Origin: Clostridiaceae bacterium
GTDB taxonomy: Bacteria; Bacillota; Clostridia; Saccharofermentanales; DTU023
Assembly: GCA_012839385.1 (NCBI GenBank)
Contig: DUNL01000158.1
Location: 1-32,748 of the forward strand
Direction of reading: 5' to 3'
DNA: 32,748 nt
Below, piece after piece: positions 30,311-32,500 of the stretch. Position 1 is the stretch's first letter. Every line of letters begins with the position of its first letter. The position numbers were made by a program, and so were the translations under genes. Below the pieces are notes generated by a model that was given only the letters and a program-made list of their open reading frames with translations, was not told the origin of the DNA and searched no databases.

Positions 30311-30784
30311 TTGAACGACACTAACGAAATAAAATTAATTGCTCGCAACCGCAGGGCATTCTATGAATACGAGATCTTATCTACCTTGGAGGCCGGTATC
30401 GTCTTATCCGGCACTGAGGTTAAATCCTTGCGCCAAAATCATCTGTCATTCGCTGATTCTTGGGTAACAATTCGCGACAATGAGGCGTATCTGATTGGAA
30501 TGCATATCACTCCATATGAGCAAGGCAATCGATTTAATGTCGACCCTGTTAGAGATAGAAAATTATTATTGAATAAACACGAGATAAGAAGGCTCGAGGC
30601 TGATATAATGCAAAAAGGCCTGACCATAGTTCCAACAAAGATTTACTTCCGCAAGGGTTTTGTTAAACTTGAAATTGGTCTAGCTAAGGGCAAAAAGCTT
30701 CATGATAAGAGAAGAAGCCAACAAGATAGAGAAGTTAAAAGGGCTATTGAGTCCAAATTAAAAGAACAGAGGAAAGGTTATTAG
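30311..30784 (+). CDS. smpB: SsrA-binding protein SmpB
   Basis: Binds tmRNA and brings it to stalled ribosomes for trans-translation. The 157-residue protein has the family start IARNRRAFYEYEIL, GTEVKSLR, the EAYLIGMHI strand and the basic C-terminal tail with KGKKLHDKRRS that enters the mRNA channel. The start is TTG at 30311 with AAGGA 6 bases upstream. The PP2C-like gene starts 6 bases after its stop and tmRNA follows about 1.3 kb downstream, placing both partners together. Confidence 0.97.
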   Translation: MNDTNEIKLIARNRRAFYEYEILSTLEAGIVLSGTEVKSLRQNHLSFADSWVTIRDNEAYLIGMHITPYEQGNRFNVDPVRDRKLLLNKHEIRRLEADIMQKGLTIVPTKIYFRKGFVKLEIGLAKGKKLHDKRRSQQDREVKRAIESKLKEQRKGY

Positions 30785-30790
30785 CGCGAT

Positions 30791-31945
30791 ATGGCAAAGA
30801 TGTTAATGATCGGACTGACTGACTCAGGCAGAGACAGCAAGGTAAATGAAGATACGTTCTCCTATCTGGGTAGAATTTATCCCGATATGATATCCGGGCA
30901 TGAGGAGAAAAGTGTCACTACTTCTGAATATAGTCAGCTCTATATAGTCACGGAGGGGTTCGGTGGCCCGGCCATTGGCGATCTCTCAGGTCGAGTCGCT
31001 CAGGCATTGTCCCTAGAGATGTCGGGAAGATTGGAGCAATATAGAGGAAATACTTTTGATTTTATGAGCTTTGGTCAGGATTTTCTCACCGAAGCAGATA
31101 AAAGAATTAAAGTCCAAATCTGTAACAAGACGGATCAACCGGCCGGCATTTCCATTTGCTTATTGCTGATTGAGGGCAATGACGCTTATGTACTCAATAT
31201 AGGTAATACAGCTTCCTTCTTGTTCAGGGACCATGAATTATTGAGACTTACCAAACCCAATCTACGGCAAGATGGCCAACCTACTGTCTGGTTGGGACAG
31301 GGAAGTCCAATCAATATCGCAGAATATGAGCCGACAACTAAGCATGTTGTTCTAACTCCGGGCGATATCATAATGTTGGCTACCTATAGTGTACATAGCG
31401 CCTATACCGCTTCAGAGATGAAGAACGCCTTTATGTCACCAAATGCCTTCGCGGGCACAATACGCTCCATTCACAACAACAGTATCTTAAATAAAGAAAC
31501 TGAAAACCACACAACATTGGCGGTAAAGGTACAAAGTCTTGAGCTATCGGCAGTACAAGCCCCGATACCGGATCAGTTAGCGAACCAACCGGTCGTACCC
31601 AATCCTTACCAGAGACCTCAGCGCGATCAACAACAAGTTAACAACAATAATTTTGAGACCGTCTCCTGGGAACATGAACCTACCAAAAAGATGTATAATA
31701 ATATTGATTATCAGTCTGCTCAACAGGCAGCAGCCGCTGCTAAAGATTACTCACGTCAAGTAAGAAGAGAAGAAGAGCTTAACAATCAACGGGGGAGGGA
31801 CAGAATGTACGATAGTTACGATTATCTTGGAACTGACGGTAGAGGTAAAGAAAATCCATTCGCGACCTTTTTCCGTTTTCTTCTACTGGGTTTTTTAATC
31901 GGCTTAGTAATACTTCTGATTATTTGGTTTTTTGTCTTAAGTTAA
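30791..31945 (+). CDS. Tail-anchored PP2C-like protein, probably a pseudophosphatase
   Basis: A 384-residue protein: a PP2C/SpoIIE-fold domain (about 1-250), a Gln/Asn- and charge-rich linker (about 255-355) and one C-terminal membrane helix (about 358-383), so the domain faces the cytoplasm. NED at 19-21 and the general order of motifs match PP2C, but the metal-binding acids are altered: DGMGG is EGFGG (Glu 55), GDS is GNT (Asn 139), SDGL is TYSV (Tyr 199) and the last DN is EN (Glu 238). It may sense or bind phosphoproteins or ligands rather than dephosphorylate. The start ATG is 6 bases after smpB with no strong ribosome site. The fold call is fairly confident, the loss of activity inferred. 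Confidence 0.65.
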   Translation: MAKMLMIGLTDSGRDSKVNEDTFSYLGRIYPDMISGHEEKSVTTSEYSQLYIVTEGFGGPAIGDLSGRVAQALSLEMSGRLEQYRGNTFDFMSFGQDFLTEADKRIKVQICNKTDQPAGISICLLLIEGNDAYVLNIGNTASFLFRDHELLRLTKPNLRQDGQPTVWLGQGSPINIAEYEPTTKHVVLTPGDIIMLATYSVHSAYTASEMKNAFMSPNAFAGTIRSIHNNSILNKETENHTTLAVKVQSLELSAVQAPIPDQLANQPVVPNPYQRPQRDQQQVNNNNFETVSWEHEPTKKMYNNIDYQSAQQAAAAAKDYSRQVRREEELNNQRGRDRMYDSYDYLGTDGRGKENPFATFFRFLLLGFLIGLVILLIIWFFVLS

Positions 31946-32030: not shown

Positions 32031-32039
32031 TGCTATAAT
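32031..32039 (+). promoter_or_regulatory. Extended -10 promoter of ssrA
   Basis: TGC TATAAT, a perfect extended -10. The start site would be near 32046, leaving a 5' extension of about 16 bases before the mature tmRNA end, as expected for RNase P processing. Confidence 0.6.
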
Positions 32040-32061: not shown

Positions 32062-32438
32062 GGGAGCGTACTGGTTTCGACGAGGTTATTGAACTTTGAG
32101 AAGCGGGTAGAGGATTCTCGTTGGCCTCTTTAAAAAACGAGAAACTTGATAATTGCCAATAAACCGGCACTTGCCGCTGCATAGATTGCCGCGGCCGTCA
32201 CCTCTGATTATCTGCCAGCAGATAAAGTGACGTCATGAGGCAGACCTTATCCGTGGGAGGTAAAACGGAGCACCGTTCCAACCCTTGCTTGGAGGTTGGA
32301 ATGTAATTACAAGCTACCGGACCGTCAAGTTTGTTAGTAGACTGAGCGGAAGGGGAATACTCCAAATACTGACTGCACCCGGAGAAGCTCTTAGGAATAT
32401 GATTTCGGACAGGGGTTCGACTCCCCTCGCTTCCACCA
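32062..32438 (+). ncRNA. ssrA: Transfer-messenger RNA (tmRNA)
   Basis: Rescues stalled ribosomes with SmpB and adds a degradation tag. The 5' end GGGAGCG pairs with CGCTTCC (32428-32434) as the acceptor stem with one G-U, followed by A and an encoded CCA (32436-32438). A TTCGACGAGG segment follows the 5' arm and GGGGTTCGACTCCCC forms the T arm (32412-32426). Pseudoknot PK1 begins with TTCTCGTT (32115-32122) pairing with AACGAGAA (32136-32143). The total length of 377 bases is normal for the one-piece form. Confidence 0.95.
32155..32184 (+). other. tmRNA tag reading frame
   Basis: The frame GCC to TAG encodes ANKPALAAA. The resume codon GCC lies 11 bases after the PK1 strand ending at 32143, the same spacing as in the E. 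coli molecule as I recall it. The LAA-type hydrophobic end is what ClpXP-like proteases recognise. In other frames this stretch has no LAA-type end. Confidence 0.8.
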
Positions 32439-32470
32439 AATAGAAAATCGGAATCACAGGAATATGTACA

Positions 32471-32500
32471 GGACGGTCAGATGACCGTTCTCTATTTTTT
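32471..32500 (+). terminator. Probable terminator after tmRNA
   Basis: ACGGTC (32473-32478) pairs with GACCGT (32483-32488) around AGAT. A T6 tract (32495-32500) follows after a few bases. Confidence 0.65.

Follow-up and report, generated by a model that had tools for sequence, protein, structure and literature searches.

The window, which is the whole 32,748-nucleotide stretch analysed here, is contig C199 of a MAG (1.96 Mb, 88.9% complete) from an uncultured family of the class Clostridia (family f1, genus g1), and it encodes between smpB and ssrA a PP2C-fold protein that has lost its metal-binding aspartates and is very likely a dead enzyme. The favoured reading, held with about even confidence, is that of a tail-anchored PP2C-type pseudophosphatase which would probably act as a binding scaffold in an envelope or Ser/Thr-kinase pathway; membership of the envelope pathway as such is put forward somewhat more tentatively. 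The open reading frame lies where the first-pass annotation had placed it, 6 nt after the end of smpB and 116 nt before the start of ssrA. The features are as follows.

30311 to 30784, plus strand: smpB (PF01668 9.2e-58, TIGR00086)
30791 to 31945, plus strand: pseudo-PP2C open reading frame (PPL), 384 aa plus stop (ORF listing)
30791 to 31540, plus strand: predicted PP2C-fold domain, residues 1-250 (AlphaFold2, Foldseek PDB, NF033484 1.1e-6)
30953 to 30955, plus strand: codon 55, Glu replacing the M1/M2 Asp of the DGxGG motif (Stp alignment)
31205 to 31207, plus strand: codon 139, Asn replacing the M3 Asp of the GD[ST] motif (Stp alignment)
31385 to 31387, plus strand: codon 199, Tyr replacing the Asp of the SDG motif (Stp alignment)
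31502 to 31504, plus strand: codon 238, Glu replacing the last metal Asp of the DN motif (Stp alignment)
31541 to 31855, plus strand: linker, modelled with low confidence (pLDDT), Q/N-rich in this genus and fast evolving (pN/pS 0.59)
31856 to 31939, plus strand: C-terminal transmembrane helix (tail anchor), residues 356-383 (AlphaFold2 model, conserved, pN/pS 0.12)
32031 to 32039, plus strand: extended -10 promoter-like box TGCTATAAT directly before ssrA (read by eye)
32062 to 32438, plus strand: ssrA (tmRNA), tag ANKPALAAA (ARAGORN)
32470 to 32491, plus strand: terminator-like hairpin after ssrA (promoter/terminator scan)

PP2C fold and metal site

In single-sequence searches the NF033484 (Stp1) profile matched residues 43-155 at 1.1e-6 with 28 bits against a curated cut-off of 230, SpoIIE was the only Pfam match and stayed under its threshold (E 0.063, 13.6 against 25), and the closest PDB sequence was PstP 1txo (E=0.013). 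Despite this weak evidence, the PP2C beta-sandwich fold of the modelled domain is regarded as settled, since a Foldseek search of the PDB with the AlphaFold2 model, for which 26 relatives were used (pLDDT 80.6 on average, ten-residue blocks from 1 to 250 scoring about 80-97), gave PP2C phosphatases as its best hits, with 2pk0 at 8.6e-14, PstP 2cm1 at 1.0e-13 and tPphA 2j86 at 4.7e-13 (TM 0.82 by target). This comparison with PrpC/Stp-type structures bears out the PP2C assignment first made from motif order. The NED element (residues 19-21) and G56, G58 and G59 are unchanged in 26 sequences.

Metal-site geometry was assessed from a sequence alignment that included Stp proteins from this genome and from related ones, and all 18 Stp sequences have Asp where the window protein has E55, N139, Y199 and E238. 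The substitutions initially read from the letters alone, including the final EN (E238-N239), thus fall exactly on the DG, GDS, SDG and DN positions, and profile alignment recovered no conserved site, with 0/4 Asp in the window protein. The four Asp do not occur together in any of the 31 members of the window's family, and with the PP2C fold this supports the pseudophosphatase assignment well at the level of sequence. Within the genus the pattern is E-N/S-Y/Q/R/H-E/T, and since position 199 may be Y, Q, R or H and position 238 E or T, the sites drift with no new ligand set.

In the rest of the family and its sister families the site is found at several stages of loss. The sister family f2 has D-D-D-D in 6/6 members. 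D-x-D-D, in which only the third-metal Asp is missing, was found in 11 members of f1 (in genera g4, g5 and g7 and one member of g3) and in 2 of f4, whose patterns also include D-N-D-D and D-N-N-D, while f3 has S-N-x-x. The M3 Asp is missing from most members of f1, f4 and f3, the exceptions including three in g6 and one in f4. Since the tree requires at minimum 4-7 changes per metal site, ligands have been lost repeatedly, and as read from these alignments the loss is stepwise as well. Mutational analysis of PP2Cs found all three Asp-coordinated metals essential (PMC3375153), while a 2025 review describes M3 as supportive and not indispensable (PMC12088040); because the two differ on M3, D-x-D-D members may keep some or weak activity with two bound metals. 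The window protein itself very probably retains none.

Two readings would leave a role to the altered site. The first is a phospho-protein trap or decoy, which at the membrane would bind the substrates phosphorylated by the PASTA kinase and shield them from Stp. It would agree with the kept PP2C fold and the presence of Stp and PASTA proteins throughout the family, and D-x-D-D members could hold phosphate through M1/M2 without turnover; in the window's genus, however, the M1/M2 ligands are gone and a conserved substitute was not seen, so that phosphate binding should be lost there, which makes this reading unlikely. Less probable again is a still-active phosphatase with a divergent metal site of Glu and Asn ligands. 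Both residues are able to bind metal, the fold and the NED and glycine positions are intact, and D-x-D-D relatives keep the M1/M2 ligands, but the complete absence of the four Asp, the drift of sites 199 and 238 within the genus and the reported need for three Asp-coordinated metals all argue against it.

Gene order, LCP neighbours and origin

The first-pass annotation had suggested a link to trans-translation from the position of the gene. The order dUTPase, hydrolase (reverse strand), tsaD, smpB, pseudo-PP2C gene, ssrA is found in g1, g4, g5 and one of the two g3 genomes (G010), the other (G011) having three genes inserted between the pseudo-PP2C gene and ssrA; with the order kept in these genera, the idea is not refuted by gene order on its own. 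In g7 the adjacency to smpB is kept and ssrA is not nearby. In g2 and g6 the gene has been relocated, smpB and (where seen) ssrA lie without it between them, and the relocated gene remains conserved, its active site dead here too. It stands 28 nt downstream of a NYN/OST-HTH (LOTUS) gene in g2 (L092, L097) and beside or near a NYN/LOTUS gene in g6 (L093-L096, L107, L108), a single relocation being the simplest explanation, since the tree unites the two genera (98/98).

A membrane-tethered ribosome-rescue factor, cotranscribed with smpB and either localising or regulating SmpB/tmRNA or sensing stalled ribosomes, would account for the persistence of smpB-gene-ssrA (smpB-gene in g7) among proteins with 22-30% identity to the window protein, for a gap to smpB of just 3-6 nt in the genus, for the f4 homologues L133 and L134, which also lie, together with other genes, between smpB and ssrA, and for the putatively RNA-acting NYN/LOTUS neighbour. 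The adjacency carries little functional weight, however, because synteny extends over the whole block and keeps unrelated flanking genes equally well, even one on the opposite strand. Moreover, the protein is kept both where its gene has moved away (g2 and g6) and where the locus lacks ssrA (g7); the NYN neighbourhood counts as a single event, no RNA-binding feature was found in the protein, ssrA is preceded by its own extended -10 box, and an LCP cell-wall gene is the usual partner in the sister families, neighbouring most homologues of the three. The proposed link to trans-translation is therefore not upheld, and a rescue factor is considered most improbable; its extension, in which a membrane-tethered pseudo-PP2C would link the membrane to ribosome rescue or to RNA quality control, with expression tied to smpB and, in sister genera, also gated by an AUU start that would respond to initiation fidelity, is slightly less credible still. 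As read from the loci compared, the position between smpB and ssrA is probably inherited gene order and not a pointer to the protein's job, and the smpB neighbourhood should be treated as a poor guide to function. A literature search on PP2C proteins with smpB/ssrA found nothing relevant.

The tree, its root put on Stp by assumption, separates canonical Stp as a clade with 100/100 support at the end of a long branch. Across that branch lie the anchored proteins from each of the four families, f2 (whose members do not resolve into one clade) closest to Stp and f1 furthest. Homologues directly after an LCP (LytR-CpsA-Psr) gene were found in f2 (L140, L142, L143, L147), f3 (L162, L163, L164, L166, L168) and f4 (L133, L135, L138, L139, L146), and they make up the majority of those examined in f2 and in f3 and several of those in f4; L141, L144, L165, L134 and L136 are without an LCP neighbour. 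The upstream LCP gene was not found in the window's family, and in the window's own genome the LCP genes lie on contigs C4 and C157, away from the pseudo-PP2C gene; as LCP is no longer adjacent there, it is the relatives that supply the envelope link. A literature search on LCP with pseudophosphatases found nothing relevant. Under the simplest history, an active, LCP-linked, membrane-anchored PP2C would have been the ancestor, the LCP-PP2C pair would then have been inserted near smpB-ssrA, and LCP would later have been lost from the f1 locus while the metal ligands were lost stepwise. The place beside the rescue genes is probably a leftover, because the relatives show descent from a working, often LCP-adjacent phosphatase.

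The f3 homologues extend past the membrane into an extracytoplasmic SH3_3 domain. Those at L162, L163, L164, L166 and L168 consist of a very degenerate pseudo-PP2C, a transmembrane helix, an SH3-like domain and a Thr/Ser-rich tail, SH3_3 being matched in L166 and slightly under cut-off in L163; by its architecture, the f3 protein is a candidate envelope receptor of its own. A class-wide search returned more anchored PP2C-like proteins with extracytoplasmic tails, and a recognised LCP neighbour was found at 0/13 loci examined from outside the order, so that the LCP link is claimed for this order only. Proteins of other Clostridia families (L174, L175, L176, L177, L182, L183, L186) join a PP2C-like domain to a membrane segment and a Pro/Thr/Glu-rich tail, with no LCP neighbour and several apparently without PP2C motifs; they are possibly further pseudophosphatases.

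Membrane anchor, selection and proposed role

The protein has a single transmembrane helix at residues 356-383 of 384, with LLLGFLIGL..I.WF conserved across genera, and the membrane anchor read initially from the C-terminus holds both in the model and in this conservation. The linker before it falls below pLDDT 50 at residues 265-303 and 338-352. Its reported Gln/Asn richness was recovered in the window protein (24% Q+N against 9% in the window's proteins); with 8-21% in relatives and a pN/pS of 0.59, it was rejected as a conserved or defining trait. As for the layout described as inverted, the order domain, linker, membrane is indeed present and is not unique, since the intact PP2Cs of f2 share it.

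Orthologs were found in 33/38 genomes of the family, including 20/20 of those of good quality, and the reading frame is without internal stops in every matched genome. Carriers in a contig scan with seven sister-genus protein queries were MAGs named Clostridiaceae, Eubacteriales, Clostridiales, Bacillota and Mageeibacillus sp., the last of class Clostridia; a scan of genome contigs with the single protein found no relatives. Pooled pN/pS for g1, g7 and g2 respectively was 0.25, 0.23 and 0.11 in the PP2C domain, 0.12, 0.26 and 0.15 in the transmembrane helix and 0.59, 0.48 and 0.42 in the linker, the ratios being rough because synonymous sites in g1 are near saturation. The domain and anchor are thus constrained by purifying selection, the linker much less. 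A pseudogene decaying towards loss, which the drifting active-site residues and fast-evolving linker might suggest, is rejected as hardly conceivable given this selection (0.11-0.25 in the domain, 0.12-0.26 in the helix), the open frames and the presence of the gene in all good genomes. Ligand loss, purifying selection and catalytically intact relatives are therefore found together, as expected of a pseudophosphatase. The canonical Stp model matched in 36/38 family genomes (31 above cut-off) and PASTA repeats occurred in 32/32 tested, both being on one contig, C283, in the window's own genome; the pseudo-PP2C, retained family-wide alongside complete Stp and PASTA proteins, is hence a second, separate protein.

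Under the preferred scaffold reading, a tail anchor would fix a dead PP2C-type (PPM) domain to the cytoplasmic side of the membrane, the protein having descended from a working membrane-anchored PP2C of an envelope Ser/Thr phosphorylation branch that is still present in f2. It would hold a partner at the membrane, such as the PASTA kinase, its substrate or soluble Stp, and might work by binding in the manner of the pseudo-PP2C TAB1.

PP2C pseudophosphatases are documented mainly in eukaryotes, and no bacterial one was found within open-licence papers. The eukaryotic TAB1 and PHLPP2 likewise combine the PP2C fold with lost metal ligands, phylogeny having shown an active ancestor for PHLPP2 (PMC12002173); the window protein differs in being bacterial and tail-anchored, and the kinship seen is that of the fold. 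With Stp1/PrpC/PstP (NF033484; 2pk0, 1txo, 2cm1, tPphA 2j86) it shares the fold, motif order and NED and GxGG elements, but it has E/N/Y/E in place of the metal Asp, carries a linker and tail anchor, and is encoded separately from the genuine Stp of the same genomes; mycobacterial PstP, by contrast, is membrane-bound yet catalytic. The LCP-linked f2 proteins (L140-L144, L147) have the same order of domain, linker and C-terminal helix and lie on the same side of the Stp branch, whereas their DDDD set is complete, their linkers are longer (giving proteins of 540-650 aa) and the gene before theirs is mostly LCP, not smpB. In the SpoIIE/RsbU group, SpoIIE likewise joins membrane association to a PP2C-superfamily domain, its ten membrane segments being N-terminal and its catalytic domain C-terminal (PMC12088040); in the window protein this order is reversed and the site appears dead. 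Within a single bacterial order the anchored protein thus occurs in intact, half-lost and fully dead form, alongside a working Stp and PASTA proteins, and such a series makes it possible to test which of the metal sites can be given up earliest and how an inactive phosphatase takes part in envelope signalling.

Expression and start codons

Given the gap of 3-6 nt within the genus, cotranscription with smpB is plausible and translational coupling may perhaps occur, which is no evidence of shared function. The extended -10 box suggests a promoter of its own for ssrA, and a scan requiring a -35 does not list it. The smpB start in the window is a TTG at 30311, which agrees in frame and register with the PF01668 match.

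The pseudo-PP2C gene starts with ATT in five g7 genomes (L022, L024, L027, L028, L029) and in L026 of g5, and with ATA in L030 of g7. These starts follow a good Shine-Dalgarno, and an in-frame stop lies a few codons upstream of them; the g7 Shine-Dalgarno is AGAGGTGA (its GTGA partly varied), with an in-frame TGA inside it in most. Codons 2-25 in g7 show 62 synonymous against 16 nonsynonymous differences, a strong constraint which indicates that they are translated, and a non-AUG start thus appears conserved across at least six genomes. Unusual starts repressed by IF3 are known, as for the GTC of Streptomyces sigR (PMC5472188). Most TsaD and Stp genes of g7 have ATG or GTG near the expected start. 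In G031 (g7) the start of the pseudo-PP2C gene is ambiguous, with an in-frame TTG, and its tsaD (L109) has no ATG or GTG near the conserved start and only a TTG 20 codons upstream, a possible further unusual start.
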